Source: Harmothoe impar (Eukaryota; Annelida; Polychaeta; Phyllodocida; Polynoidae). Taken from it: 64,000 nucleotides of DNA. The position numbers and the translations under genes were made by a program. Numbering within the stretch: position 1 is the stretch's first letter; the number at the start of each line of letters is the position of its first letter. Location: assembly GCA_947462335.1 (NCBI GenBank), contig OX381705.1, forward strand, positions 992,001-1,056,000, in the 5' to 3' direction. Shown here in pieces: positions 48,560-64,000 of the stretch. The notes below the pieces were generated by a model. It ran no database searches, was not told the DNA's origin, and saw only the letters and a program-made list of their open reading frames with translations.

Positions 48560-48795
48560 CACAGAGAAAAAGAGTCCAGGTCGCCTAAGGGAGCCTAGGT
48601 GACTCTCTGGCTGACCTAAGGGAGTCACCTGGGGGAGTAATATAGCTCTCTGGGTCATATGACTCCCCCGGGTGACTCCCTTAGGTCAGCCAGAGAGTCA
48701 CCTTGGCCCCCTTAGGCGACATGGACTCTCCTAAACAGGGGAATCATTCTGCAGGCAGCCTGGACTCCCTTTTGACGCTGTTTCTTCTCTCTGTG
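48560..48795. mobile_element. TIR MITE, CACAGAGAAA family, copy 2
   Basis: CACAGAGAAAAAGAGTCC at the left and GTTTCTTCTCTCTGTG at the right, with the AGTCACCT blocks of the 33,758 copy. It is the last recognisable host repeat before the Polinton. Confidence 0.8.
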
Positions 48796-49141
48796 TTAGT
48801 AGTATATAGGAGCATATTCAGCGCGTAGTAAACGGGTGCATCTAGGTCAGTTGACACTTGCAGAACGGAAGTGACCTCTGTCAACCAATCAGAAGCTTCT
48901 AAATGACAGGAAGTGACGTCATCAGAGGTCATGACATACTTTACAAGCTTCTGATTGGCTAGTACAATGTCAACATGACCTACTTCACTTGTACACGTGT
49001 TGAAGACCACGTGCTTATAATAAATGTCAACAATGACACGTGTTTAAGACCACGTGGTTGAAATAAATGTCAACAATGACATTGAGTAATGCCGTCACAT
49101 GCTAAAGACAAACACAAGGCAAGAAATATTATTTTGGTTAC
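48796..49141. other. Left flank or terminal region of the Polinton
   Basis: Holds an inverted pair, CCAATCAGAAGCTT and AAGCTTCTGATTGG (about 48,885-48,958), a TGACGTCA, and a 43-bp tandem duplication (48,993-49,079) with ACACGTGTT and ACCACGTG. The left terminal inverted repeat probably lies here. It cannot be delimited because the right end is outside the window. Confidence 0.4.
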
Positions 49142-49147
49142 TTTATT
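49142..49147 (-). terminator. Poly(A) signal of the 3'-most minus-strand gene
   Basis: On the minus strand the stop TGA of the 333-codon frame overlaps AATAAA by one base (TGAATAAA), giving an extremely short 3' untranslated region. Confidence 0.6.
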
Positions 49148-50085
49148 CACATTTTATACTTTGTACAGTTCTTGCACACAAACAAGTCATGACCATTCCC
49201 TGCAATGTTACACATGATGCAGAAAGAACGATTGGTTGTGAAACCTTTCTGGCCTTTCCAAGAAACACCTCGAGTATTCCAAGTACTCACCCAACCAGTC
49301 CCCATCTTCACAATTTTAGATAGTTTCACATCAAACAATGACTGAGCTAGAAAGTATTCGCGATTGTTTCTCACACCTGGAGTCAGGGCATTCAAGTAAT
49401 CAGTTTTGAAACTGACTTCATACGAGAAATGTTGTAACACAGCTGTGAGAGACAAAGCTTTCAACTCTAGAGTAGCTTGCAGACACGTGAAACACACATT
49501 GTAAGCGATATCTGAAGGGTTCATCGGAACATTACACCTACAGAATGCGCCTATAATAGGTGATTCACGTAACACTTCGTTAAACTCCATGAAGCTCTTG
49601 AAACTCCCTAGAGTGTATCTAGCATAGTGTCTGGGGCAAGTCAGAGAGTTATGCATTTGATACACAGCAATGGTGAAATCTGCAACGAATATAGGCAGAT
49701 TCAATGTGGATTGCTCTATACACTGAGTGTATGCATCCCAGAAAGCTTCATGGAAATCTCTGTACACATGTATACTGGAAAAACAGCGCTCAACAACATC
49801 AGGTAAGGTTCCTCTAAAATAGCTAATATTATTTACAGGTATGAACTCCCAGAAGAAATGACCTCTACAACCACAAGTCAAAGCTGTGTCGAAGTTACGA
49901 GGTGACACTGGTTTTACATGAGTTGTAATGCGTGGGGGTGTATGAACATTTTTCTCACTTTCACGTGGTGAGAGAGTTGGTGGTGAAGCATCAAGTCTAG
50001 AACTACAACTACCATATATAGAACTGTACATACTGACAGAGTCAAGGATATCGTCTATTTTTGACGTCAACTTGCTGTCAGCCAT
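49147..50085 (-). CDS. Polinton orphan protein, Cys-rich
   Basis: I start it at the ATG at 50,085 (MADSKL...), giving 312 residues; an in-frame ATG at 50,148 would add 21 residues. I do not recognise the family. The first 70 residues are Ser/Pro-rich and likely disordered. The rest is compact, with paired cysteines (CGCRGHFF, CRCN, CFTC) and a C-terminal CIMC...H...CKNC arrangement typical of a small zinc-binding module. It is the outermost gene on this side of the element, next to the terminus, and shares the minus strand with the polymerase. It could be a DNA- or terminus-binding factor, but that is a guess from position. The poly(A) signal overlaps its stop codon. Confidence 0.7.
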   Translation of the reverse strand: MADSKLTSKIDDILDSVSMYSSIYGSCSSRLDASPPTLSPRESEKNVHTPPRITTHVKPVSPRNFDTALTCGCRGHFFWEFIPVNNISYFRGTLPDVVERCFSSIHVYRDFHEAFWDAYTQCIEQSTLNLPIFVADFTIAVYQMHNSLTCPRHYARYTLGSFKSFMEFNEVLRESPIIGAFCRCNVPMNPSDIAYNVCFTCLQATLELKALSLTAVLQHFSYEVSFKTDYLNALTPGVRNNREYFLAQSLFDVKLSKIVKMGTGWVSTWNTRGVSWKGQKGFTTNRSFCIMCNIAGNGHDLFVCKNCTKYKM

Positions 50086-50148
50086 TGTATATATTTTCTT
50101 GACACTAATCAGAAAAAAATAATCTTCTCTGATGAATTTGACGGACAA

Positions 50149-50627
50149 AGAGAGTTTAGTAAAGTAGTCTGAAATCAGTCAGTGGCGTCTTTGTAACAAC
50201 TCTCTTTTCACGCCTGCTTTTTATTTTTTGGTGTGATACAGTTCACTTTTTTTTTGTTATTTTACGAGCTTTTTTTTAGCGATATAGTTCACTAGGAGAG
50301 AAATTGAGGTGAAACATTCGGAGAGAAATTGGATAATTTCCTCGAATGTTCAACTATAATTTCTCTCTCTTTCTCTTTATAGAAGCTGTATTATTTACAT
50401 TTTTATGAAAATTTTTCATGAAAATTTTTCTCTTTTCTTCTTTTTTTTTTACTATATAGTTAGTACTACTTAATTTCCAATTATGGAAATTTTTTCTTTT
50501 TCTTCACAGAAAATTTTCCCTTTTCTTTAACTATTTTCTCTTTTCTTTTTTACTGTAGGAAAATACTGTTAGTTTTTTTACTTTTTTTGAGTGATACAAC
50601 TCACTTGTCTTTTGTCACACACAAACA

Positions 50628-50670
<43 letters not shown>

Positions 50671-50684
50671 ACAGAAAGAGAGAG
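50149..50684. other. Intergenic region within the Polinton, (CA)n tract
   Basis: Pyrimidine-rich spacer with the repeated motif GTGATACA(G/A)(T/C)TCACT (about 50,231 and 50,591) and a (CA)n microsatellite at about 50,618-50,672. It is the downstream region of the polymerase gene. No gene is seen. Confidence 0.5.
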
Positions 50685-53600
50685 TCATATATCTAAAGGT
50701 TCAGTGCTGACACCATCTTCACATACTATTCTCTTAATGTACTGGTAATTTAGACCTTGCTTGTTCTGAGAGTATGTAGTGACGTGATGGTCTATAACTC
50801 TGAAACCTCTGTTTGTCACTACATGAGTCTTTTCTGTTTTCAAAACGTTCTGATAATTTGTCTCAGTAAGATTATTCTGCCTCTGGATAACTCCTTTGCA
50901 ACTAGTCTTATTCCCTGTCTCACTGACACACATGTAACATTTAGGGTTCAAAGATGTCATAGCGTCTCCTTCCCACTCTATCTTGAACAGACCTGGAGTT
51001 CGCTTGTCAAACACCAGGCGGCGATAGCAACACGGTGGTTGTACCCATGGGTAGTTGTGTGTTCTGCATTGAATGTACGTCTCTCTATGTTCAGGATTAT
51101 CACAAGATTCAGAAGGTAACCACTTGTGACGCTCTCTGAAGTATTGCTCACGCATATCAGGTTTGACAGCTTCGTCTAAATTCTTTTTAGACAATGCAAA
51201 ATAAAAACTGTCAGTGTCCATTTCACACATTTCAAAGTCTTTTGAGTCAATGAACTTCAACAAGAAGTCGTAGTAGAACGCTAACATTTTCAGTTTAGCA
51301 TACTGGTATACCATGAACCCAATCTGAACAGGTAAGTCGTATGTGATACTAGTCGGGAGAGATGACATTTCTACAGTGTTCTCACTGATGTCATGCACTT
51401 GTTGTACTGACCAGTGCAGACAATGTCGACTAGCAAAATCTGGACTTACATATTTAGTATTCAAGAAATTCTGCTTGTTACATATAGTCTTACCATATGA
51501 ACTGTTACCTAACAGTTTATACAAGTCAGACAAGATCTTGCAGTCAACATTCTCATCTCCTTTCCGTCTAGCTGCTGTCACTTCTTGCACAAAAGGTCTG
51601 AAAGTTTCTTCAGGTGTGTATTGAACTAACAAGTGCACTTTGCTAACTACTAAACCTTTCTCTAGATACCACTTAAGTAACGGAGTACCTAGTAGAAGAC
51701 CTGATCCATGGAAACTACCTATCAACTGTCTCTGAGGTTGGCGCAGTTTCCCTACACTTTCTAGATAACTTTTCATATGATCACCTACATCTTCTTTGCT
51801 GACAAGAATGTTCTTGAAAACTGGTGTCATTTCAGCAAAATATGGTTTGAGATGTTCAGGTGTGTGAATATCTACTTGAATCAACCCAAACACTGAACCA
51901 CTTTTCACGCCTTCTATTATCTCAGCTTGACTCATCTTACCAGCTGAAGACGGTCTATTAACACTCCATTCCGGTTTCAGTTTCAAACACTGAGTGTTTT
52001 TTCGTAATTTGATCCACTGACATTCATATTGTTCTACTACTGTGTAACCTAAACTTTTCAGATACAGAGTTACAGCAGCTGTTTTAGTAGAACGCTCTTC
52101 TATCCATTCCCGACCCTTCGTACTAGTCATCAATGTCTTGTTGATCTGACATGTATGACCATGCCAATAGCAACCGTGGAACTGGTATATCAATTTACGA
52201 TCAGGGACTATCCCATCTACTCTTATACGCTGACTACCTACACTGACTTCACCATAGTTGTATTGATGTAAAATAGGTACTTTGTCTACTATAGCTCTGT
52301 AACGGAGCCATTCTACAGCTGAGTAACTGATTTGCTGACTGAGAACAGGTTTGAAATCATCTTCGTGACGTCTCACTACATAGAAACCTGTACAATGAGC
52401 TTCACCCATACATTTCAAGTACAAACTATTTGCATCTACTCCTAAAATGTGATCACACTTCTTACTATCAACTCCATACTTACGCTCTCTTATTCTAGTT
52501 ATACCACTACGATGGTGTCTGTGGAATATTATAGCAGGTCCACCAACTAAATTCTTTCTCAGTAAGTTGTGGACTTCTTTTTCATGATGTGAAAAGAGAA
52601 CATAAGGTGTCGCATTCAACTCAGTGTTCTGAAAGAGGAACTTCAAAGTCAAACCTGGAAGTGTCAAACCATCTTTGAACATGTCGACACTCCTTTCTAT
52701 GAAGAACTTGCTATGTTCATTTATAGCTCTGACAAATGGAGCTACATCTAAATTGTTATAGTACACTAAGTAGTCTTTCATTGTTTTCATTTTTTCTTTC
52801 ACCCACACTTCTTTACAGCTTCTATACTCAGCTTGAGTTATACCTTTCCCAGTCAGAGAGCTATAGAAACTTCTCCTAGGTGGGAGAGTTGTGTTATCTA
52901 ATTTTCGAACATTGTCCATCCACTCATAAGGAAAAAAACCTTTCTCTGTGTCTTTCAAAAAAGCTTTCAAATAACTAGCGTAATTATAACCTGGAGCTAG
53001 ATAGTTCACCATGTCTAAGAAGACTAAGTGCTCAGTGTATACAGCAATGTACTGGTTGCACCTTTTAATAGTCGTCATAGGTTTCTTTTCTCTTTCTGAG
53101 AAGAAAGTGTGGAAGCTTCTCTTTATTAGATTTAAGTCATATCGACCTGAGTTAAAACCTACTACAGGTACTCTGTTCATATAAGCTGTCAGAGCTTGTT
53201 TAGCTCTGACGACAGGTGATAAATTATACTTACTTTTCTCTAACTTAGCAGCTTTCAAAGCTGCACTCTCTAACCTTTCCTCTTCAGCTTGCAGAGCATC
53301 TAGCTGATCTGTCACTACTTTAAAACGCTCTCTGACACATTCACCTATTTCACAAGCTAACATATCTATGTACCCTAATACACGACTGACTAAGTCATCA
53401 TTTTCCCTGTTACTCTCTCTGACAAAACACACTGGTTCTGTATACCCTGGAAAGTCACTAGCTACACTAGCTGACAGTGGTACATGATCTAACTCAAAAG
53501 TTGTGTTACAACTTTTCTCACCGTTCTTTACAAAATAACTTTCAAAGTCGAAAGCAATCTTATATGGGTATATCTTTAAGTGAGCAGGTGTATGTACACC

Positions 53601-54767
53601 TAACTCACTCAACTTCTGAAATATAGTTCTACTAGGTTTGTACACACCCCCTTTGTATATAAATCGTACTTTAGTACAGTCTTTTGTTACAGCAGTGTGT
53701 CTCTTCAAGTTGTAATTAGAAGAGAATGCTTTGTAACATTTTTCACAACTGTACACGCGACCATATTTACACATGTCTACTATCAGACTCAAGTGGTTGC
53801 GGTACATGTTGAGATTCAAGACTTTCTTGCTACTACAAAGCTTGCTACGCACTACAGTCACTTTATTAGTACTAGACAGCTTGAACACTCGTATGTCTAT
53901 TTTGAATACTTTCTCTAATCTATCTAAATCACTTAAGAGAATACCTTTGAACTTTTTCTGACAAGTGTCTGGATAAGCTTCTTTGAAAAGCTCTACAGTT
54001 CTATCTAATGTTTTATACAAGTGGTGTGACAAGCATCTAAAGAAACACAAGTTGTCTCTGTACACTCTCTTACTGTAAGAGTCTCGGTGGAAGTGTAACA
54101 TACCTCTTTTCCTGAAACTAGGAGGGACACTCTCTAACTTACCTAAGAACACATTTGTAGGTCTAATATAAGTCAGATTCACATTCACATTACCTACTAC
54201 TTTCCACTTTGTGTCAGGTCTACTTGTGTCAACTTTCACTTTACTTTTCAATAGATCTATGCAACTTTCAAAGCTCTCAGAGTTCTTAACTAAGAAGTAA
54301 GGGTCTTGATGGTCTTCACTGTCATAAAAAACTGAAGAGTTGTTAGCTGAAGCATGAAAATACATGACTCTTTGCTCAGCGTCTTCAGTGCAAGTCAAAA
54401 TTCGACCAAAAGACACAGCTACTCTATAACTGTATAACTGGTTCTCATGTATAGCTCTGAGAGCTGTCACTATCTCACTCACTCCTTGATCAGATTCAAA
54501 AGTAGTTAATCTGACGTTATATATAGCTTGTACACAACCTAACACAACTAAACCTTGACCTATCGATCTGAAATTTGATTTGTAATATTCTAAGAAAAGA
54601 GAGTTTTTCTCAATCTCTTCAGGTAAAACTGTTTCACTAGAGAAGACTTCTCTCAAGCAAGTCTCTGAAGTACACAAGTTCTTACTACTGTTATGTATAG
54701 TAACTTGTCTAGGAATTCTAGGTGCATTACACCGAATACAACTGATAGTATTCACGTGTCTATGCAT
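50685..54767 (-). CDS. Protein-primed DNA polymerase B (Polinton POLB) with OTU-like region and zinc finger
   Basis: This 1360-residue protein would replicate the element from a protein primer at its termini. The 3'-5' exonuclease motifs are ExoI AFDFES (D407, E409), ExoII VGFNSGRYDLN (about 536-546) and ExoIII YYNNLD (about 669-674). The polymerase motifs are A, GVDANSLY (D778), B, LLGNSSYGKT (about 1086-1095), and C, EMDTDS (D1184, D1186). Between A and B lies the insert with FHGCYWHGH (about 863-871), seen in long invertebrate protein-primed polymerases. Upstream, DNLCFFRCL (D238, C241) and NHLSLI (H325) fit an OTU-type cysteine protease core, followed by a Cys/His finger (C341, C344, H357, C364). 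All motifs are intact, so the enzyme looks functional. It lies on the opposite strand to the integrase module. Confidence 0.95.
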   Translation of the reverse strand: MHRHVNTISCIRCNAPRIPRQVTIHNSSKNLCTSETCLREVFSSETVLPEEIEKNSLFLEYYKSNFRSIGQGLVVLGCVQAIYNVRLTTFESDQGVSEIVTALRAIHENQLYSYRVAVSFGRILTCTEDAEQRVMYFHASANNSSVFYDSEDHQDPYFLVKNSESFESCIDLLKSKVKVDTSRPDTKWKVVGNVNVNLTYIRPTNVFLGKLESVPPSFRKRGMLHFHRDSYSKRVYRDNLCFFRCLSHHLYKTLDRTVELFKEAYPDTCQKKFKGILLSDLDRLEKVFKIDIRVFKLSSTNKVTVVRSKLCSSKKVLNLNMYRNHLSLIVDMCKYGRVYSCEKCYKAFSSNYNLKRHTAVTKDCTKVRFIYKGGVYKPSRTIFQKLSELGVHTPAHLKIYPYKIAFDFESYFVKNGEKSCNTTFELDHVPLSASVASDFPGYTEPVCFVRESNRENDDLVSRVLGYIDMLACEIGECVRERFKVVTDQLDALQAEEERLESAALKAAKLEKSKYNLSPVVRAKQALTAYMNRVPVVGFNSGRYDLNLIKRSFHTFFSEREKKPMTTIKRCNQYIAVYTEHLVFLDMVNYLAPGYNYASYLKAFLKDTEKGFFPYEWMDNVRKLDNTTLPPRRSFYSSLTGKGITQAEYRSCKEVWVKEKMKTMKDYLVYYNNLDVAPFVRAINEHSKFFIERSVDMFKDGLTLPGLTLKFLFQNTELNATPYVLFSHHEKEVHNLLRKNLVGGPAIIFHRHHRSGITRIRERKYGVDSKKCDHILGVDANSLYLKCMGEAHCTGFYVVRRHEDDFKPVLSQQISYSAVEWLRYRAIVDKVPILHQYNYGEVSVGSQRIRVDGIVPDRKLIYQFHGCYWHGHTCQINKTLMTSTKGREWIEERSTKTAAVTLYLKSLGYTVVEQYECQWIKLRKNTQCLKLKPEWSVNRPSSAGKMSQAEIIEGVKSGSVFGLIQVDIHTPEHLKPYFAEMTPVFKNILVSKEDVGDHMKSYLESVGKLRQPQRQLIGSFHGSGLLLGTPLLKWYLEKGLVVSKVHLLVQYTPEETFRPFVQEVTAARRKGDENVDCKILSDLYKLLGNSSYGKTICNKQNFLNTKYVSPDFASRHCLHWSVQQVHDISENTVEMSSLPTSITYDLPVQIGFMVYQYAKLKMLAFYYDFLLKFIDSKDFEMCEMDTDSFYFALSKKNLDEAVKPDMREQYFRERHKWLPSESCDNPEHRETYIQCRTHNYPWVQPPCCYRRLVFDKRTPGLFKIEWEGDAMTSLNPKCYMCVSETGNKTSCKGVIQRQNNLTETNYQNVLKTEKTHVVTNRGFRVIDHHVTTYSQNKQGLNYQYIKRIVCEDGVSTEPLDI

Positions 54768-54850
54768 TTTAAAAACTCTTCAGATATACACTCTCTCCTT
54801 CTTTTTTTCTTTCCTTTTTTCCACTAAAACATACTCACTAACAAACAGGC

Positions 54851-54883
<33 letters not shown>

Positions 54884-54965
54884 CATAATGCAAAGAATTT
54901 ACAGCCTTATCAATACAGTGTTGAGGAACCTTACAACTGATGTAATTTAATTGTTGAGCACTCAC
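54768..54965. promoter_or_regulatory. Spacer upstream of the polymerase, (CAGA)n tract
   Basis: About 200 bp between the 511-residue gene and the polymerase, with a (CAGA)n run at 54,846-54,882. A donor-like AG|GTGAGT overlaps the stop of the upstream gene. I see no clear TATA box, so the polymerase could be read from its own weak promoter or from a shared transcript. Confidence 0.35.
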
Positions 54966-56501
54966 CTAGACAGTCTCATCGCAAGTGGTAACACTTCTGT
55001 AAAAGTTCTTGTCACTCTCCAGCATCGGCCCAACACGTTCTAGTATGTCTTTGATCGTGTTGACAGTCACCGTGTACCCACAGTGTATTGGACTTGTTGT
55101 TGCTCGACCTGCCGGCAGTGCTTTATCCATTTCTTCCACGTACGACGACGTTCCGATGTGGATCTTAGGTTGGCCCCTGTAGAGGTTGACTAAGATACCT
55201 GTGTGCTTGACAGGGTTGTCTAAGTAGTTCAGATAGTTCTGGACTGCTGGCGCTCCTTTCTTAGCTTCTTCTTTAATCCTGTCATAGTTCTCTATGATAG
55301 ATTTGCTCTGGTAGAAGAGCCCTCTGAAGTCGTTTGCCCGTAAGTTGACGCGCCTCTCGTAAGGCTTGTTCAAATATTGCCTTATTGAGACGCCACTGAT
55401 GAAGGGGAGCTTGTATACTTCAAGCAGCGTGCATGTATCTCCAGGTGGGTAGAATAGTTGGTCAGGAACAATGCTACCTTCAGCTTGTTGAGATGGGAAT
55501 CCAAACCGACTAGGCCACTTCTCACCAGTCAAAGGGACTATGCGGAAGTTAGCCAGCTTAGACCCAACTTTCTTGGATCCATTCCTCGGCGGAAGCGGTG
55601 TCACAACAGCAGTAGCAACCGTAGATTGGGAAGTAACACTTCCCACACCAGCCTTTGCAGCACGTGCAGCAGCTGCAGCTACAGTAGCCACACTCTTGGT
55701 GTACTTTCGCTTCTTTTTTTTTTCAACAACTGCTTCTGGCTGGATCTGTGGAGATGGACTTCTTTTAGTAGCAGTCGTCACGCCCTTGGGAGGATTCACT
55801 TCACCACTTGTGTCACCTACTACTCTTGAGTAGTACTCATCCGTGACTACTGTAGCTTCTCCGTTGATGACGACAACAGTGTCAGTCAAGCTAGGAGTGA
55901 TGACGGCCCCAGCACTATCCCTCACTACAATGTCGGCTGGTACAGCTGTAGTGACAGGTGAGGCAGGTGGCGCGCAGCGTCCTTCAGCTTCAGCTCTCTG
56001 GAACCACTCATCTAGTACTTCATTCAAGTCGTGCCCGATGATTTCACCTTCTTCTACTTCGTCCTCTGTCAAGTCGATGACGATTGGTGTACTAGGTCGA
56101 AGAAGTATCTCATCACCAGTCAAGTCGATGATGACTGGAGGAGTAGCGGCAGTGGGAAGAGCTCCATTGCCTCGGCCCACGGGCATGACCTGTGACAGGG
56201 TCTGGTAAGTGAGGACATCTTGGGGCGGTTCAGGGTTGCTGAAGCTTGTAGAGCTCAAAGCTGGAGCTGACGTAGATACATCACGGTCCAGTACGCCAGT
56301 GGAAGGAGCCAGCATGCAGTCCAGATCGTGATGTAACCCCAAGATAGCTGCACTCTGCTCTTCAGGTGTACTTGGACGATGAATCCACTGTACTTCATTG
56401 CTCACTGTAGGAGGTATCTCCACAGAAACGTCCAGAACTAAGTTCTTGCTCTTAGCGACTTTAGAACTCTTCTTAGAGCTCTTGTTGCCAGCAGACCGCA
56501 T
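54966..56501 (-). CDS. Polinton protein with two SUMO-interaction motifs
   Basis: A 511-residue protein that I do not recognise as a whole. Residues about 122-131 (VIIDLTGDE) and 140-148 (IVIDLTEDE) are two textbook SUMO-interaction motifs: a hydrophobic core followed by acidic residues, 17 residues apart. Similar tandem motifs give poly-SUMO binding in proteins such as the RNF4 class of ubiquitin ligases. No RING is visible here. A basic KKKKRKYTK stretch (about 261-269) is a likely nuclear localisation signal, followed by an Ala-rich helix. The C-terminal about 200 residues (from FRIVPLTGEKW) look globular. It diverges from the 230-residue gene across a 740-bp spacer. A role at SUMO-rich nuclear bodies or as a DNA-binding terminal-protein-like factor is inference. 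Confidence 0.8.
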   Translation of the reverse strand: MRSAGNKSSKKSSKVAKSKNLVLDVSVEIPPTVSNEVQWIHRPSTPEEQSAAILGLHHDLDCMLAPSTGVLDRDVSTSAPALSSTSFSNPEPPQDVLTYQTLSQVMPVGRGNGALPTAATPPVIIDLTGDEILLRPSTPIVIDLTEDEVEEGEIIGHDLNEVLDEWFQRAEAEGRCAPPASPVTTAVPADIVVRDSAGAVITPSLTDTVVVINGEATVVTDEYYSRVVGDTSGEVNPPKGVTTATKRSPSPQIQPEAVVEKKKKRKYTKSVATVAAAAARAAKAGVGSVTSQSTVATAVVTPLPPRNGSKKVGSKLANFRIVPLTGEKWPSRFGFPSQQAEGSIVPDQLFYPPGDTCTLLEVYKLPFISGVSIRQYLNKPYERRVNLRANDFRGLFYQSKSIIENYDRIKEEAKKGAPAVQNYLNYLDNPVKHTGILVNLYRGQPKIHIGTSSYVEEMDKALPAGRATTSPIHCGYTVTVNTIKDILERVGPMLESDKNFYRSVTTCDETV

Positions 56502-57242
56502 CCTAAACTAAAACAGTTAGTTTGTAGAAGTTGAAAGGTAGAGGCAGCGTGTAGAGTGGCAAGTGTAGAGTAGAGTAGTCGTCACAGTTGAGCAGCTCAG
56601 GAGCGGTTTGATTTCAACTGAGCAAATCAAGGGGTATATATACTAATTTTACTGACAACGATTGTCAAACGTTGTCACACGTTTGTTGAACGACAATAGA
56701 CGAACATTTGACGTCTGACATTTTTTTCATATTTCATCTCTAATTGTTATTGTACGACAATTATACGCACATGTCACTATAGTAAAGCACTAGGCTGAGT
56801 TTGGATACAATGTATCTTTATCAACCACACTACATAAATAAGCACGGGATAACCCATAACAGACTGGTGCTTCTGCGGAGAGTAAAACAAAAAGTTGAAA
56901 AACAACAGTTGGAAATGTGAACTCTATTCAGATAGCACAGTGGCTGTCAGCTGGATAGGGCGTTGCAACATAAAAGGAACGTTCATGAATGTTGTATCTT
57001 ATACTACACTTTTCAAGATGAAAAAATATAAATACAATCTAAATTTTTTTTTTAACTTATTATATGATTGACAAGTTTGAAGGTGAAGTTTACATTTTCT
57101 TCTTGACGTTTGTTTGAAAGATTTTCGTTCAAGTGAGTTAATTTGTGAACACTACTTTTCTAGAGAGGGTGGGGGAAACGATTAGTGTACGTTGAAAACA
57201 ACCGGCTGTGATCAGATTCAAACTGAGCAGCTCTGAGACAAC
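56502..57242. promoter_or_regulatory. Divergent promoter region
   Basis: This 740-bp spacer separates the minus-strand and plus-strand blocks. TATATATA at 56,635-56,642 is placed to drive the minus-strand gene (about 130 bp before its start). The two sides share GATT(T)CAA(A)CTGAGCA and GAGCAGCTC motifs (56,590-56,625 and 57,210-57,236), which could be common binding sites. The middle has ACGTTTG/CAAACGTT-type inverted motifs at 56,660-56,715. Confidence 0.5.
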
Positions 57243-57935
57243 ATGTCCAGTGCAGCTTGTACACCTCTACCGATTTCACTCAGCACTAAACACAGGCGGT
57301 CAGTTTGGGAGTTCATTTCAGACGTCAAGAGTGGAGTAGAGACTGGTGAGGAAAAGCAGTTGTTCAGATATTGTCCTGAAGAGTACATCAGAGATAGTTA
57401 CATACCTCCAAATTTAGATTTTTCAAATTGTTTTCTGCATAACAACACGACTCCTATAAATGCTAGTAGTCCTTCTCTCAAGAAGTTCATAACTAGTTCT
57501 ACTGGGAAAGCTACTCAATCTGAAGTAGTGAGTAACGTGTTACTGCTAGTTTCTAAGTTACAACACAGTGTAACTTCTCATAGTGTAGTAGCTTCAGCTA
57601 TCAACTTTCAAAAATGTAGGACGAAACCCTACTTCAAAATTAATCAGCTTGAATCACACCAGCTGGGAAATTCCGTGTTCATCTCTACGAGTATGGTACA
57701 TGGCTTAATCAAGCACACAGTATCAGCTCCTGACAAGATAACACGTGCTAAATACTCTTCAGATCGGTTTCTGTATGAAAGAGCATACAAGACTGAGATT
57801 GGACACAATGCAAACGGGTGTTGTCACGTTGTAAGAGTAGTTGTACAACGTTGTCAAAACCCTACTCTACTGTGCCAAGGAGTCTTGTATGAACTGGTGA
57901 CAGCCTTTCCAACTCAATCCTTCTCCCCTAACTGA
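57243..57935 (+). CDS. Polinton orphan protein, 230 residues
   Basis: First gene of the plus-strand block. I do not recognise it. It starts at the first ATG after the shared promoter motif. The sequence is Ser/Thr-rich without a signal peptide or membrane segment. The C-terminal half (about residues 130-225) has a regular pattern of hydrophobic strands, including CHVVRVVVQRCQN and LLCQGVLYELV, suggesting a compact beta-rich domain. A poly(A) signal AATAAA follows at 57,980, so it is probably transcribed alone. It is not a protease, capsid or ATPase by any motif I can see. Confidence 0.7.
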   Translation: MSSAACTPLPISLSTKHRRSVWEFISDVKSGVETGEEKQLFRYCPEEYIRDSYIPPNLDFSNCFLHNNTTPINASSPSLKKFITSSTGKATQSEVVSNVLLLVSKLQHSVTSHSVVASAINFQKCRTKPYFKINQLESHQLGNSVFISTSMVHGLIKHTVSAPDKITRAKYSSDRFLYERAYKTEIGHNANGCCHVVRVVVQRCQNPTLLCQGVLYELVTAFPTQSFSPN

Positions 57936-58191
57936 TGAAAAAAAACTTTGACCAATAGTCTATTAGATGCTTCACAAAAAATAAAAAAAGTGAAAAAAGT
58001 ATAGGTGTACTAACAAACTAACTCTGGTCTCTCATATATTGAGAGACCCCCCTTCAAACTGGCACTCTACTTCTTAAAAATTTTACATGCACACTGTGTT
58101 TTAAACGGTTAGTTGTCAAGTCATAAATCACTCAGAGTATATAGGGTCGTGTAAGTGCACTCACTCATTCAAACGACCTTTCAACGTCATC
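57936..58191. promoter_or_regulatory. Poly(A) signal and next promoter
   Basis: AATAAA at 57,980-57,985 ends the preceding gene. TATATAG at 58,138-58,144 lies 48 bp before the next start codon, a sensible TATA-to-ATG distance for a short leader. Confidence 0.5.
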
Positions 58192-58845
58192 ATGAAGACA
58201 GCTCACGACCTCTACACGCTAGTTAAGGCTAGATACCCTGAAGACGAGTTAGTATTACAGTATGTGTGTGAAAGAAAAGAGTCTGTCACATGCACTGTAA
58301 AAACTTTACAGTACATTTTCAATCATTTCAAACAGACTTTAGAGCATAGGAAATGGTTGTATTACACTTGGGTTCTGCTAAGTGATAGCTTCAATGAGAG
58401 TGAAGCTAAATGTATAGACAAGTTGATAATGAAGCACGACTTGTCTAAGTTTTCAGCTGTAGAAGCTGTTGGATACGGGTGGAAGTTTGGCCGCCTTAAG
58501 AGTTCAAAACCTCTCAAGAACTCTGACCACCTTGCAATGTGGGAATCAGCGCTGAAACATCACTACGCAAACAACCCTCATCATCCTCAGTACCACTCTA
58601 ATCAAGACATGCCGACACATTACTTGTTAGAGAGTATCATAGACATGCTAGGTTGTCGGCTTCAAAGGAACTTAGCAGGTCGTTCAGATTTGAAAGTAGA
58701 AGACATTTTCAAAATCCCAGATACGTATCTAGAACGTTACACTGAAGCAGACAGATACAGAGTTAAAACTTATTTAAGTCAGTGGGAGCGTGATATTACA
58801 ACGTCCTCTCATCGTAGTGGTTTAGCGCTCAGAATGTTATTGTAA
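58192..58845 (+). CDS. DUF5662/HD-like putative phosphohydrolase
   Basis: 217 residues. The pattern KHDLSKFSAVE (H82, D83, K86, E91), then W117, HHYANNPHH (about 123-131), MP (140-141) and E147...D151 matches what I recall of the DUF5662 family, found mainly in bacteria and phages, whose conserved His/Asp set resembles an HD-type metal hydrolase. H51 could complete the H...HD...D signature. A nucleotide or nucleoside phosphohydrolase role is plausible but unproven. The gene has its own TATA-like box and is followed by a G-rich spacer. Its presence in an animal-genome element suggests transfer from a phage or bacterial source. Confidence 0.65.
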   Translation: MKTAHDLYTLVKARYPEDELVLQYVCERKESVTCTVKTLQYIFNHFKQTLEHRKWLYYTWVLLSDSFNESEAKCIDKLIMKHDLSKFSAVEAVGYGWKFGRLKSSKPLKNSDHLAMWESALKHHYANNPHHPQYHSNQDMPTHYLLESIIDMLGCRLQRNLAGRSDLKVEDIFKIPDTYLERYTEADRYRVKTYLSQWERDITTSSHRSGLALRMLL

Positions 58846-59130
58846 ACACTCTGATAAAAAAGTGAAACGTTAGTGCATCGTATAGAGTTGGGTGGGGTGG
58901 GGGGTGTGTATAGTATTAGCATAGGGTGTATGGGGTGGGGAGCACCCCTCTAGTGTGAAATGGATAGGGGGCGAGGAGTTCGAACTCAGAACGTTTTGCA
59001 TACTCTTTACACGATTTCCCTACGTATTCTAGTCTAAAGAGCTATATAAAAGCTCCCCCTAACCTACAACACCCCATACAACGCTCTACCTACCTACCTG
59101 CCTGTCTACTCCTTCACACACTCGCTCATC
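58846..59130 (+). promoter_or_regulatory. G-rich spacer with TATA promoter
   Basis: GGGTGGGG-type tracts (58,890-58,945) are followed by TATATAAAA at 59,043-59,051, 80 bp before the death-domain gene. This is the clearest TATA box in the element and probably drives the compact gene cluster downstream. Confidence 0.6.
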
Positions 59131-59817
59131 ATGGCAGATTTCAATTTGGTAGTACCTGTATCATCATTCTTCAAAGGAGAGCCGTTAGGATACTTACCAG
59201 ACGCTATGCTACTGAAAATAAGTAGTAAGTTGCCGACATCAGATTACATACGGTTAGGTTCATACCTCAAAGTGAACTTGAAGGACATGGGATATCTCAG
59301 TTGTGAGAGAAGTGTCATAACTCAAGCTAGAGAAATGTTCACTACTTGGTACCAGAAAAGTTGTACTACTAGGTGGGAAGAACTAGCAGACGCTTTGGAG
59401 GAATCTTACCGTATGGACCTCATCCAATTCTCACGTGAGTACATGGACAAGCATGACATGTGGGATGGCTTAGAGAGTGGAGACATGGAGTGGAAAGTGG
59501 AGAAATATTTCTCTCTTTTGTCTGAGCTCTGCCCTAGAGACTGGAAGACCATAGGGATCTACTTAGGGTTGACTTCTCATGAAATAGCTTTCATCTCTCA
59601 ACCTGTGCCTTCTGACAGAACTGTCAAGAACCCTGTCTATGAAGTGCTGAGAGCTTGGAAGTACAACGAGACGTCTGAGCCTATAGCTCTGATGAAAGTG
59701 TTGCAAGACGACATGGGTCGCAGCGACGTCGCAATGTATGTTCAAGGGTTGTATGCAGCTGTACCCAAAGCCATAAAAGTGAGCTGTGTCACTCCAGTGT
59801 TGACCACTCTCGTCTGA
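59131..59817 (+). CDS. Tandem death-domain protein
   Basis: 228 residues made almost entirely of two death-fold modules. Module 1 (about 24-104) shows LLKISSKLPTSDYIRLGSYL, then the helix-4/5 pattern AREMFTTWYQK and RWEELADALEESYRMDL. Module 2 (about 122-210) shows CPRDWKTIGIYLGLTSHEI, VLRAWKYNE and IALMKVLQDDMGRSDVA. This W-x-x-L/I-G-x-x-L, then L-x-x-W, then L-x-x-x-L spacing is the death-domain signature of apoptosis and innate-immune adaptors. No protease, kinase or membrane part is present, so it would act only by protein-protein contacts, either assembling or blocking host death-domain complexes. A clear TATA box precedes it and the ATPase gene starts 13 bp after its stop. Capture from a host gene is likely. 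Confidence 0.75.
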   Translation: MADFNLVVPVSSFFKGEPLGYLPDAMLLKISSKLPTSDYIRLGSYLKVNLKDMGYLSCERSVITQAREMFTTWYQKSCTTRWEELADALEESYRMDLIQFSREYMDKHDMWDGLESGDMEWKVEKYFSLLSELCPRDWKTIGIYLGLTSHEIAFISQPVPSDRTVKNPVYEVLRAWKYNETSEPIALMKVLQDDMGRSDVAMYVQGLYAAVPKAIKVSCVTPVLTTLV

Positions 59818-59830
59818 TCACTGCACTAAG

Positions 59831-60520
59831 ATGGACGTCTCTACCGCTGTGGAATCTGTTGAATTCGATCCTAGACTACAGTCACCTTTCACTATGCTAA
59901 TAGCTGGACCTACATCCTGTGGTAAGAGTCGTCTAGTATTCGAAGTGATAAATAACGTGAAGACTCTCGTCACACCTGAAGTACACGATATAACTTACTG
60001 CTACAGCCAGTGGCAACCAGAGTTTGAAAAGTTGAAAAGTGCAGGTGTGAAATTCAACGAAGGTCTTCTTACAAGGGATGAACTTTTCAACTCTAGTCGA
60101 GATACTAGTAAACACTCGATGCTCATCATAGACGACTTGTTAGACCCAGAATATGCACCTATAGCTAAAGACCTCTTCATCAAAGGTTCTCATCATATGA
60201 ACATGAATGTAATATTCATTACTCAGAACTTATTCTTTGCTAACAAAGACTTCAGGACTCTCAGTTTGAACAGTCATTATCTAGTTATTTTTAAAAACCC
60301 TCGAGATATGAGTCAGATAAGTTATATATCTAGACAAGCTTTCCCAGCGCAACCATCTTTCTTGACTCAGGTATATAACAAAGAGACTACAGCTAAACAC
60401 TCATACATAGTGTTGGACTGTAAGCAGAGCACACCTGACAACTTGCGAGTGAGGAACAGTATAACAACACCTTGGAACAGCGTAGTATTCATTCCTACTG
60501 GGAAAAAGCAGAAGAAATGA
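59831..60520 (+). CDS. A32-type genome-packaging ATPase (Polinton ATP)
   Basis: 229 residues of the FtsK/HerA-superfamily packaging ATPase found in Polintons, poxvirus-like viruses and virophages. The Walker A motif is GPTSCGKS (26-33), Walker B MLIIDD (97-102, with D101/D102), and the downstream polar motif is FITQN (129-133). It would pump element DNA into preformed capsids. All catalytic motifs are intact and the length is typical. Its TGA stop overlaps the ATG of the next gene as ATGA. Confidence 0.93.
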   Translation: MDVSTAVESVEFDPRLQSPFTMLIAGPTSCGKSRLVFEVINNVKTLVTPEVHDITYCYSQWQPEFEKLKSAGVKFNEGLLTRDELFNSSRDTSKHSMLIIDDLLDPEYAPIAKDLFIKGSHHMNMNVIFITQNLFFANKDFRTLSLNSHYLVIFKNPRDMSQISYISRQAFPAQPSFLTQVYNKETTAKHSYIVLDCKQSTPDNLRVRNSITTPWNSVVFIPTGKKQKK

Positions 60521-60927
60521 AGGGGAGTACTAAGAGTAAGCGTGCTAAGAGTCTTAAGCGCCGTCAGAGAAGTGCTTACTACCAAAAGTTAGTTTCTTTA
60601 CGTCGGCATTACTCTCTGTTGAAACATATAGCTAAATGTAGTAGTACAGACTGTCAACATTTAGTGAGAGGTCTCAGTGAAGAAGTGATCAGACTAATGA
60701 GTGTCATATGTGTCAATGTAATGAACAAAACCTTGACACCGAACTACCTTCACGCAGTCAAGAAGTTATCGCCGTACAAGAAACAGCTGAGAGCTATAAC
60801 AAAACCTAAGATTACTGTCATAGCTAAGAGACGAATACTACAGCAGGACGGTGGCTTCATAGGTGCACTACTGGGTGTAGCACTACCTCTTATTACTAGT
60901 CTCATAGGATCAGCTGTCAAACGGTAG
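60517..60927 (+). CDS. Basic protein with Gly-rich hydrophobic tail (candidate membrane-active virion peptide)
   Basis: I choose the ATG at 60,517, overlapping the ATPase stop, giving 136 residues; the frame is open further upstream (60,472) inside the ATPase gene. The N-terminus is strongly basic (KSKRAKSLKRRQR) and the middle is helical. The C-terminus, GGFIGALLGVALPLITSLIG, is a Gly-rich amphipathic or hydrophobic segment. Short proteins with such tails occur in Polintons and adintoviruses and have been compared with adenovirus pVI/pX-type membrane-active or core proteins. The assignment rests on composition and position. Confidence 0.6.
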   Translation: MKGSTKSKRAKSLKRRQRSAYYQKLVSLRRHYSLLKHIAKCSSTDCQHLVRGLSEEVIRLMSVICVNVMNKTLTPNYLHAVKKLSPYKKQLRAITKPKITVIAKRRILQQDGGFIGALLGVALPLITSLIGSAVKR

Positions 60928-60929
60928 TC

Positions 60930-61958
60930 ATGTCTTACACACGTATGGCTTTAGTGAGACCTGATTTAGTAGGTAAAAGCGACACCCCCATTTCTTCTAC
61001 TACTAACACTGACCCGCTACCTAGTGCAACACTCGCGTCTTCTGCTCCAGCTGTGCTACCAGACCCTCAAACTCAGTTCTATGAGAGTCAACTAGTCAGA
61101 GAAAAACTATCCCCACACAGTAGTCTAGTGGAGATATTGAGTCACTTACAGAAAGAAGCAACTAGAGTATTGAATGACTCTCAGTTGAACACTAGTGAGA
61201 GACTCAGTAGATACAACCAGCTCATGACTAAATCTTCTATACTATACAAAAAAGCTAAAATTGTGAGTCGAGCTGCTTCTTCTATGAACCCTAGAAATAT
61301 TACTCAACAACGTCACAAAAGAGGTAGGAGAGGGGAAGAAGCAGACGATGAAGCTACTTCAGGCGATGATGACGATATGTTTTCTACTACTAGTCATCAA
61401 ACTCCAACTCCAAGTTTACCTGGTGCTAGTGGAGACGATGAATATGAGTCTCAAGAAGAAGAAGAAAGAGAAGAAGAAGACACAGGACCTATAGGTAGAC
61501 AAGGTGTCATGGTGATGGATGCTTTAATTCAAAGGCGTGTACCTACTACTTATCAGAAGACTGCTATGAATCTGTATAGACACTTAGCAGACTCTGACAA
61601 AGGTAGAGGTACTATCAACTGGACTCCTAGTGGTGAACTAGTAGTGCACGGGCGGCGTATACAAGGGAGTAACATCATTGATCTACTAGGTGATGCAGCT
61701 CGGAAAAATAGTCTAACTAAGAAGCAACCTCCTATAGGACAAAAGTACTTCATCGCAGCTGTTAAAAGGTTGAACCCAGACCTCAAGTTCGTCAGAAACA
61801 AAGAATCTTTCAAGAGTGTTAGTTCTATGACTGGCTCCCCCTTCAGAAGACGTTCATATAGTGTAACACCAAAGCGTAAACGTAAAGCTAATACTGCACA
61901 GAGTGGTACTGGTATAACATCTCGTCAACTAGCAAAGTTATGGCGGACAAAGCTTTGA
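60930..61958 (+). CDS. Conserved Polinton-type protein of unknown role
   Basis: 342 residues, starting 2 bp after the previous stop. The N-terminal third is Ser/Pro-rich and the middle (about 125-185) is a highly acidic and basic low-complexity region (EEEEREEEDTG). A globular domain at about 200-290 (TYQKTAMNLYRHLADS, INWTPSGELVVHGRRIQGSN, IIDLLGDAA) resembles a domain I recall from many animal Polinton-like and cnidarian/arthropod transposon proteins that lie just upstream of an integrase; its function is not established. The C-terminus is Arg/Lys-rich (TPKRKRK), suggesting DNA contact or a virion core role. It overlaps the integrase start by 19 bp. Confidence 0.6.
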   Translation: MSYTRMALVRPDLVGKSDTPISSTTNTDPLPSATLASSAPAVLPDPQTQFYESQLVREKLSPHSSLVEILSHLQKEATRVLNDSQLNTSERLSRYNQLMTKSSILYKKAKIVSRAASSMNPRNITQQRHKRGRRGEEADDEATSGDDDDMFSTTSHQTPTPSLPGASGDDEYESQEEEEREEEDTGPIGRQGVMVMDALIQRRVPTTYQKTAMNLYRHLADSDKGRGTINWTPSGELVVHGRRIQGSNIIDLLGDAARKNSLTKKQPPIGQKYFIAAVKRLNPDLKFVRNKESFKSVSSMTGSPFRRRSYSVTPKRKRKANTAQSGTGITSRQLAKLWRTKL

Positions 61959-63022
61959 AGAAAGCTGTAGTAGATCGCTATACTTCAGTCAGAGAACCTG
62001 GAAGTTTCACTAGCGTGAGTAAATTGCGACACCATCACTTTAAGAAGACTGACTTAAAAAACATTGCTGAAGCTTTAGAAGATGTGGATGCTTACACTAG
62101 ACACAAACCTTACAAGAGACGGTTCACAAGACACAAGACTCAGACTTGGGGTATAGATAGACAATGGCAGTTAGATCTTATTGACATGAGAGAGTCTTCA
62201 CGTGAGAACAAAGGGTACCAGTATATTTTAGCTGGTATAGATGTCTTCTCAAGATATGGCTTTGCTCAACCTGTCAAGAGTAAGAAAGCTGTAGATGTAT
62301 TAGAAGCTTACAAGAAAATGACTGAGAGTAGACAACCTGTTAAAATCCAGACTGACAAAGGAAAAGAATTTTTGAACCAAACTTTCAGAAGTCATCTAGA
62401 AGAAAGGGGTGTAAAATTGTTCACTGGAGAGAACGATGACGTGAAATGTGCTATAGCTGAACGATTTAACGCCACACTGCAAGGTAAGCTGTGGCGTTGC
62501 TTTGCTTACTTCAACAACTACAAGTGGACAGGTATACTTCAAGATCTAGTCCACTCTTACAATAGTACTGTGCATAAGACACTAGGTGCAGCTCCAGTCG
62601 ACATCACAGACAAGAACTCTGATGCTCTGTTCTACAGGCTATATGAACAACCACCAGACAAGAGGACTGTGCCCAAGTTACTTTTGAAGAAAGGTTCTAA
62701 AGTGCGCATGCTTGCTAAGAAGCGCGCTTTCAACAGAGGTTACGAACCTAACTGGACTGAAGAAGTATACACTATAGATTCTGTCAAACCTAAAGGATAC
62801 CAACTGAAAGATGAACTAGGAGAAGAGATAAAAGGAACTTTCTACCAGCCTGAAGTTCAAAAGGTCCATGTCCGTCAAGGGAAGAGGTACGACATAGAGG
62901 AAGTAGTGAAGTACAGAGGCTCAGGTCGTAAGCGTCAAGCATACGTCAAGTGGAAAGGTTACGGGGATAAGTTCAACACGTGGGAACCTGCTAACAACGT
63001 GAAAAAATGGCGTTCACAATGA
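61940..63022 (+). CDS. Retroviral-type integrase with C-terminal chromodomain (Polinton INT)
   Basis: 360 residues. The core (about 70-230) carries the D,D35E triad: D79 in WQLDLIDM, D139 in IQTDKGKEF and E174 in AIAERFNATL. After an SH3-like region (about 245-310) comes a chromodomain (about 317-354) with YDIEEVVKYRG, YVKWKGYGD and TWEP. That is the usual Polinton arrangement and would steer insertion toward chromatin marks such as methylated histone H3. The N-terminal zinc-binding part found in retroviruses is not evident. The triad is intact, so the enzyme should be active. It starts inside the preceding gene and overlaps the next by 16 bp. Confidence 0.95.
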   Translation: MADKALKKAVVDRYTSVREPGSFTSVSKLRHHHFKKTDLKNIAEALEDVDAYTRHKPYKRRFTRHKTQTWGIDRQWQLDLIDMRESSRENKGYQYILAGIDVFSRYGFAQPVKSKKAVDVLEAYKKMTESRQPVKIQTDKGKEFLNQTFRSHLEERGVKLFTGENDDVKCAIAERFNATLQGKLWRCFAYFNNYKWTGILQDLVHSYNSTVHKTLGAAPVDITDKNSDALFYRLYEQPPDKRTVPKLLLKKGSKVRMLAKKRAFNRGYEPNWTEEVYTIDSVKPKGYQLKDELGEEIKGTFYQPEVQKVHVRQGKRYDIEEVVKYRGSGRKRQAYVKWKGYGDKFNTWEPANNVKKWRSQ

Positions 63023-64000
63023 CACTACCTAGCAACTCGTCTATGAAAGTTTTCCCAGACAACACTCTGACAACTTACAACACATTGTTACCTGAGTATG
63101 TATCTTCTAGTACTCCAATGGAGTGTGCTCTGCAAGAAATAACGTGTCCTACTAGTTGGTACAACGTAGAATGTGAGACATTGTTGTTCATAGAAGGTGA
63201 AACAGACTCAACTATACCCAAGAGCGTCATGAGTGCTAAAAGACTACAAGAAGCACTACATAAGCGAAGCTCAGACTTTTTTCCTTACACAGCGAACGAT
63301 CCTGTGTTGAATAGGAAAAGTTCAAGTATACACGACAGCGTAGCTAAGAAGTGTCTACAGCGAGGTGTAGAGATCAAACGCTCTAAACAAGTACCAGTAC
63401 GACAACCTACAGCGAGACTTAGTGTAGAATCAGACCCAAGCTCTGGAGAAGTAGCGCGACCTGCGCCGCTACCTAGTGTCGAATCGGACAGCGAAACCGA
63501 AACTGAACCAGACCCTTTAGCAGAAGTGCCGCCATCTGGTGCAGACAGTATCACTTACAGAATAGTACGCGGTTTGAACCCTGAGAACCGTGCGAGTGCA
63601 GCAGTCTCAGCTGTGAGAGATTCACTCAACTTAAATTACACAGAAAAAGCAGCATTCATAAACGGGCTTACTACTAGAGAGTCAGAAGTTTTGACTGAGG
63701 AAGAACTCAGAGTAGTGAAAATAGAATTAAAGTTGAAGTATTTAGATAAACTAGTCAACACTTTTCAATTCCCAGCAGTCCGGACATATACAGCTTTCTC
63801 TCTGCAAGGTGTATATCTACAAGACAACAGTGACTTCATAAATTATCTGAACAAGTGTATTAACAGGAAACACCCTAGTATCATCAAGAAACTGAGGACA
63901 CACCACAAGAACAATAAATCTAACGTGTTCACATACAACAGGTATACAATGAAGTGTATTGTAGCTCTACCCCCTGATGTTGTGATACAACTACCAGTTA
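63007..64000 (+). CDS. Conserved Polinton structural-type protein, 5' part
   Basis: A frame of 331 codons that runs off the window without a stop; it starts at ATG 63,007, inside the end of the integrase gene. The N-terminus (TLPSNSSMKVFPDNTLTTYN followed by LPEY... and ALQEITCPTSWYNVE) matches a segment I recall from many animal Polinton proteins, in which a beta-rich N-terminal domain begins almost identically. Residues about 125-180 are Ser/Glu/Pro-rich. The remainder is mixed alpha/beta. Its place after the integrase suggests a virion component (possibly penton or minor capsid), but I cannot assign it firmly. Confidence 0.65.
   Translation, partial: MAFTMTLPSNSSMKVFPDNTLTTYNTLLPEYVSSSTPMECALQEITCPTSWYNVECETLLFIEGETDSTIPKSVMSAKRLQEALHKRSSDFFPYTANDPVLNRKSSSIHDSVAKKCLQRGVEIKRSKQVPVRQPTARLSVESDPSSGEVARPAPLPSVESDSETETEPDPLAEVPPSGADSITYRIVRGLNPENRASAAVSAVRDSLNLNYTEKAAFINGLTTRESEVLTEEELRVVKIELKLKYLDKLVNTFQFPAVRTYTAFSLQGVYLQDNSDFINYLNKCINRKHPSIIKKLRTHHKNNKSNVFTYNRYTMKCIVALPPDVVIQLPV

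Follow-up and report, generated by a model that had tools for sequence, protein, structure and literature searches.

The polynoid annelid Harmothoe impar carries, on contig OX381705.1 (assembly GCA_947462335.1), a complete Polinton/Maverick of 18,484 bp, most of which lies in the 64,000-nt stretch analysed here (positions 992,001 to 1,056,000, forward strand; hereafter the window). The element, an adintovirus-like Polinton/Maverick with virus-like character and recent activity, is ordinary in architecture, and its unusual cargo is a gene consisting of death domains alone. We consider the chances evenly balanced that this cargo acts as a decoy for host signalling, a role suggested by domain type and viral precedent and probably the simplest reading.

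The cargo gene and its two domains are located as follows.
59131..59817, plus strand: tandem death-domain protein, 228 amino acids (Pfam Death, E = 1.7e-13; homologs; structure model)
59212..59439, plus strand: death domain 1, residues about 28-103 (Pfam Death, E = 7.9e-05, 23.2 bits, half scanned alone)
59512..59742, plus strand: death domain 2, residues 128-204 (Pfam Death, E = 1.3e-07, 32.1 bits, half scanned alone)

Against the Pfam Death (PF00531) cut-off of 22.6 bits, the whole protein scored 50.9 bits and each half separately also exceeded the cut-off, bearing out the tandem death-domain protein proposed by an initial annotation made from the DNA letters. Eight relatives, 54-97% identical, each returned a Death match as well. 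Judged by its sequence, the 228-residue protein comprises two death domains and nothing else. Its predicted structure contains two sets of helices, and a Foldseek search with this model gave no match at E ≤ 0.001. The open literature searched contained no report of a death-domain gene in Polintons; the main adintovirus description (Starrett 2021) lay outside that literature.

The tandem death-domain protein would most likely join host death-domain assemblies (FADD, death-receptor or similar) via homotypic contact. Assemblies joined in this way would be capped or starved, and cell death or inflammatory signalling would be delayed during element replication, a mode that may be likened to that of viral CARD-only or tandem death-effector-domain proteins. 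Two death domains without an enzyme also fit the shape of an adaptor, and FADD itself is an adaptor with two death folds; an activator that nucleates host complexes, and thereby a pro-survival or NF-kB-type programme used by the element's promoters, is nevertheless unlikely in our estimation, although the present data do not separate activator from decoy. The position of the gene bears on another reading, in which the death-fold protein now serves a structural or packaging function, a use reflected in its place beside the ATPase gene. The death-gene stop codon lies 13 bases ahead of the ATPase start within the rightward gene cluster, but both halves still pass the Death cut-off alone; such retention is compatible with a structural role, which we nonetheless judge to be quite improbable.

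The assignment to Polintons was examined at the element's ends, for which coordinates refer either to the window or to L009, the piece carrying the right part of the element beyond the window edge.
48792..48797, strandless: left target-site duplication TGTGTT, 6 bp (same hexamer immediately past the right end, L009 4282-4287)
48798..49102, plus strand: left terminal inverted repeat region, starting AGTAGT (two blocks matching the right end by blastn)

The element extends from 48798 to window-equivalent 67281, with its rightmost 3.3 kb beyond the window comprising the rest of a penton-like gene, a basic protein, a putative major capsid gene, an adenain-like protease and the right terminal inverted repeat (TIR). 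The ends bear AGT-type TIRs, with matching 6-bp target duplications on both sides. By blastn, 48798-48996 matches L009 4281-4074 in inverted orientation (86% over 212 columns), and a second block pairs 49065-49102 with L009 4028-3990 (92% over 39 columns). A gene set that includes a family B polymerase, an rve integrase and a Peptidase_C5 protease is likewise that of a Polinton/Maverick, so that the identity given by the initial annotation is upheld. The span given there, 49142..64000, covers only part of the Polinton: the true start at 48798 is 344 bases earlier and 64000 is only the edge of the window.

Several smaller features accompany these ends. CACGTG E-box palindromes with 14 bp spacing occur in both terminal regions (window 48994-49056; L009 4035-4068), four at the left end in two pairs and three at the right, and are possibly promoter or origin sites. 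The window contains 16 CACGTG sites versus 8.7 expected, with 0 of 100 shuffles reaching 16; the three in L009 were reached by 18 of 200 shuffles. The left E-boxes are contained in a 43-bp tandem direct repeat (91% identical, window 48993-49078) of the left terminal region. Just beyond the left end stands a 73-bp inverted repeat (93% complementary, 13-base loop, window 48571-48729), which may be a host-side hairpin or resemble a miniature inverted-repeat transposable element.

Copies were sought across the genome (1.51 Gb, 736 contigs), and all counts concern the best-scoring matches rather than the total number or decayed copies. The best 40 of 196 candidate copies of segment 55000-56000 were each ~100% identical, and all 40 had the death gene 4131-4140 bases off on the same strand. 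For the death gene itself, the best 150 of 3691 candidate copies were 96-100% identical, and 149 of these 150 were free of internal stops. Inspection of the ends of ten further plus-strand copies revealed perfect 6-bp duplications in eight, all different; for the remaining two, the piece examined did not show the left end. The near-identical copies and differing duplications show that the family spread recently through integration. We also considered a chimeric or misassembled locus, and rejected it on finding the same genes at the same places in other copies and perfect duplications in 8/10. Two death-gene copies in the genome (G000 C12:34476199 and C12:34484833) share a strand and are separated by only 8.6 kb, a distance shorter than the element itself, so that an insertion there looks rearranged or duplicated. 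Viral-contig relatives were sought with integrase, death-domain, polymerase and SUMO-interaction-motif (SIM) protein queries, and none was confirmed.

The SIM protein is the second candidate for an effect on host pathways.
54966..56501, minus strand: 511-amino-acid protein (N-terminal part poorly conserved, with SIM-like motifs; C-terminal ~190 amino acids strongly conserved)
56118..56132, minus strand: SIM-like motif IIDLT, residues 124-128 (motif scan)
56067..56081, minus strand: SIM-like motif VIDLT with acidic tail, residues 141-145 (motif scan)

The SIM consensus combines a hydrophobic core with an acidic flank, and the eight positions after the motif hold two acidic residues for IIDLT and six for VIDLT. 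The presence of both motifs in the N-terminal part is beyond chance (0 of 20,000 composition shuffles), and at least one scored SIM-like motif occurs in 7 of 10 aligned proteins, window protein counted, within an otherwise poorly conserved region. One of these, P0009, contributes little, being 98% identical. The claim of a protein with two SUMO-interaction motifs stands for the motifs, which are conserved enough to be credible as such. Two of nine homologs, P0011 and P0013, are without a scored motif despite having N-termini, and in P0015 most of the region is absent. SUMO binding is putative. A basic stretch, EKKKKRKYTKS, resembles a nuclear localisation signal by eye, and the protein, which has this stretch as well as its conserved C-terminal domain, is a probable partner of SUMO-modified nuclear proteins near replicating DNA.

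The conserved C-terminal ~190 residues gave no useful match to any known family, and structure prediction for the protein was unusable (mean predicted local distance difference test score, 39.7). A hunch that the C-terminus is PC4-like gave a score for residues 428-505 reached by 0 of 200 shuffles, but that for residues 345-415 was reached by 69 of 200. The hhalign probabilities were 8% and 0.3% for the two pieces, 0.5% between the pieces and 2.3% for the whole protein; PC4 gave no match for the SIM protein in Pfam or PDB and is a weak lead.

The third module of the initial annotation was an OTU-like domain fused to the polymerase.
50685..54767, minus strand: protein-primed-type family B DNA polymerase (PolB), 1360 amino acids (relatives match DNA_pol_B_2; motifs by eye)
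53733..54155, minus strand: OTU-like (D2/vOTU) region of PolB with Cys241 and His325 (invariant residues in alignment)
51993..52223, minus strand: Vsr-endonuclease-like stretch within PolB, residues 849-925 (PDB and Pfam)

We aligned 30 polymerases, namely 29 of the 42 homologs found and the window protein. Family B motifs are legible by eye in the window PolB, and 16 of the 30 match DNA_pol_B_2 in Pfam, with no such match for the window PolB itself at E ≤ 5. A protein-primed-type polymerase, as initially annotated, agrees with these observations, the priming mode being predicted. Seven residues (Asp238, Leu240, Cys241, Phe243, Arg244, Cys245 and His325) are invariant in 30/30, giving the pattern Asp-x-Leu-Cys plus His, and by these conserved residues the OTU-like motif is real. 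Profile evidence is not significant: an OTU match was absent for the window PolB at E ≤ 5 in Pfam, OTU was not among the matches listed for the 30 polymerases (25 of 38 Pfam families), and Pfam and PDB sequence searches gave no significant OTU match for the region. A profile of 13 OTU-like segments searched against PDB had a weak best E of 0.9, to a chain named RNA-directed RNA polymerase with the common pattern D-x-x-C-F-F-x-C; chains so named are presumably viral OTU domains. The fused domain is retained on its Cys/His motif rather than on a profile match.

Published work describes a D2 vOTU-like cysteine protease in Polinton PolB, for which release of the terminal protein has been proposed (PMC11071308), and counts an N-terminal OTU-like domain among the features that define adintovirus PolB (PMC11071296). 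Being already described at the core of Polinton and adintovirus PolB, the OTU-like domain is neither new nor a sign of tampering with host ubiquitin. Its proposed role as a host-ubiquitin accessory, and with it the label of host-signalling module, was rejected in favour of the published replication-enzyme domain (PMC11071308, PMC11071296). As part of that enzyme, the vOTU-like domain would probably separate terminal protein and polymerase by cleavage. The Vsr-like stretch matched PDB entries 1odg, 1vsr and 1cw0 at E = 5.1e-4 to 7.4e-4 and Pfam Vsr at E = 0.0013, under its cut-off, and 15 of the 30 aligned polymerases match Vsr at E ≤ 1; inserted homing endonucleases have been reported in Polinton polymerases (preprint PMC11071308). 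One of the 30 scanned polymerases, homolog P0058, has a NADAR match (E = 9.1e-10) and carries precomputed PF08719.

Both the SIM gene and the polymerase N-terminus were followed through other copies. Among eight young copies, the window's included, the SIM gene was open with both motifs in all eight and the polymerase N-terminus was open in seven. Ten older copies were picked, with aligned pieces 94-98.7% identical: two SIM-like motifs stood at the same place in 10/10, the SIM-gene match was unbroken in one frame in 7/10, and the OTU Cys and His motifs were kept in nine, that stretch being unmatched in the tenth (L057). In five of the ten, the polymerase N-terminus was interrupted by stops or a frame break or was partly missing. 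The other copies examined carry the three modules at the same positions. That the death, SUMO and OTU genes jointly act on host defence or nuclear bodies is, in our view, very improbable. Fixed spacing of the SIM-gene segment and death gene (40/40 copies) and co-occurrence of SIM motifs with the OTU-like part (7/8 young and 9/10 older loci) would fit joint action, but any recent family would show fixed spacing, Polinton PolB in general has the OTU-like domain, to which terminal-protein cleavage is attributed (PMC11071308), and P0011 and P0013 are without a scored SIM motif. What survives of the three-module set is at most two candidate host-pathway genes, with the OTU part excluded and no sign of joint action.

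It is conceivable, if somewhat short of probable, that this Polinton lineage has means of delaying host cell death such as larger DNA viruses possess, with a tandem-death-domain inhibitor and a SUMO-binding nuclear protein. Such a lineage would be represented by this large genome together with related contigs from other sources, its inhibitor open through many transpositions and conserved in relatives down to 54% identity. Polinton particles of multicellular hosts have not been observed (PMC8097293), and the death-domain-only gene touches the question of whether such Polintons still act as viruses. Open in 149 of the best 150 copies, it is the sort of anti-host gene that one would expect an infecting agent, rather than a silent transposon, to carry, and its small product is testable.

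The remaining genes within the window are given below.
49147..50148, minus strand: 333-amino-acid open reading frame (ORF), TTG start as listed, Cys-rich C-terminus (no significant Pfam or PHROGs match)
57243..57935, plus strand: 230-amino-acid ORF (Pfam and PHROGs scanned)
58192..58845, plus strand: DUF5662 protein, 217 amino acids (Pfam PF18907, E = 1.4e-21)
59831..60520, plus strand: packaging-type ATPase, P-loop GPTSCGKS (named by motif and position)
60517..60927, plus strand: basic protein, hydrophobic C-terminus (within ORF 60472-60927, ATG chosen by eye)
60930..61958, plus strand: 342-amino-acid ORF (Pfam and PHROGs scanned)
61940..63022, plus strand: DDE (rve) integrase with C-terminal chromodomain (Pfam rve, E = 1.7e-10; Chromo, E = 9.2e-09; above cut-off)
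63007..64000, plus strand: penton/minor-capsid-like gene, 449 amino acids, on to window-equivalent 64356 (L009 7-1356; position only)

The leftward cluster contains the 333-amino-acid ORF, PolB and the SIM protein. The rightward cluster comprises the 230-amino-acid ORF, DUF5662, the tandem death-domain protein, ATPase, basic protein, 342-amino-acid ORF and integrase-chromodomain, followed by the penton-like gene, a 163-amino-acid basic protein, a 437-amino-acid putative major capsid gene and the adenain-like protease. Pfam scores confirm the chromodomain integrase of the initial annotation; its A32-type ATPase has a P-loop, seen by eye, but profile scores were all under cut-off (Pox_A32, E = 0.057; Adeno_IVa2, E = 0.045; AAA_14, E = 0.0047). 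The protease matched Peptidase_C5 (E = 2.5e-05, 24.5 bits versus a cut-off of 21.3; L009 3179-3625). Both capsid candidates, of 449 and 437 amino acids, lacked a Pfam match and are named by position alone, and a PDB sequence search with the 437-amino-acid protein gave no significant match. The basic protein at 60517..60927 had no significant match in Pfam or PHROGs, and a PHROGs scan of eight element proteins returned none. DUF5662, a family of unknown function, is encoded within the Polinton at 58192-58845.

Among the closest known systems, vertebrate Mavericks (PMC8097293) share 5'-(AGT)2//(ACT)2-3' ends, 6-bp target duplications, a size range (12.7-24.6 kb) that includes this element, and polymerase, integrase and protease genes; they also have ATPase and capsid genes, of which this element has candidates, and accessory ORFs are reported for them. 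As stated for cane-toad elements in that paper, the polymerase and integrase clusters diverge here; the annelid element differs in having the ATPase within the integrase cluster and in its death-domain gene, the words death and apoptosis having 0 occurrences in that paper's main text. Adintoviruses (PMC11071296) share a PolB N-terminal OTU-like domain, here recognised by motif, an rve integrase with a C-terminal chromodomain, also found here, and an adenain-like protease; the main text of that paper contains none of the terms death, apoptosis, SUMO and DUF5662. Ginger1 transposases (PMC2836005) likewise belong to a DDE-integrase element with an OTU (or Ulp1) protease domain, but there OTU is fused to the transposase and here to the polymerase. 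Burro giant Gypsy-like retrotransposons of planarians (PMC6431247) are also large mobile elements with apoptosis- or ubiquitin-linked extra domains (BIR, BCL2-like, TRAF-type MATH and Ubi2/SUMO-like), although they are long terminal repeat retrotransposons with other domains and, in the account covered, no death domain. An iridovirus CARD protein (PMC4457926) is likewise a death-fold protein encoded by a virus, and inhibition of apoptosis has been reported for it; it differs in being a CARD of 91 amino acids from another virus group.
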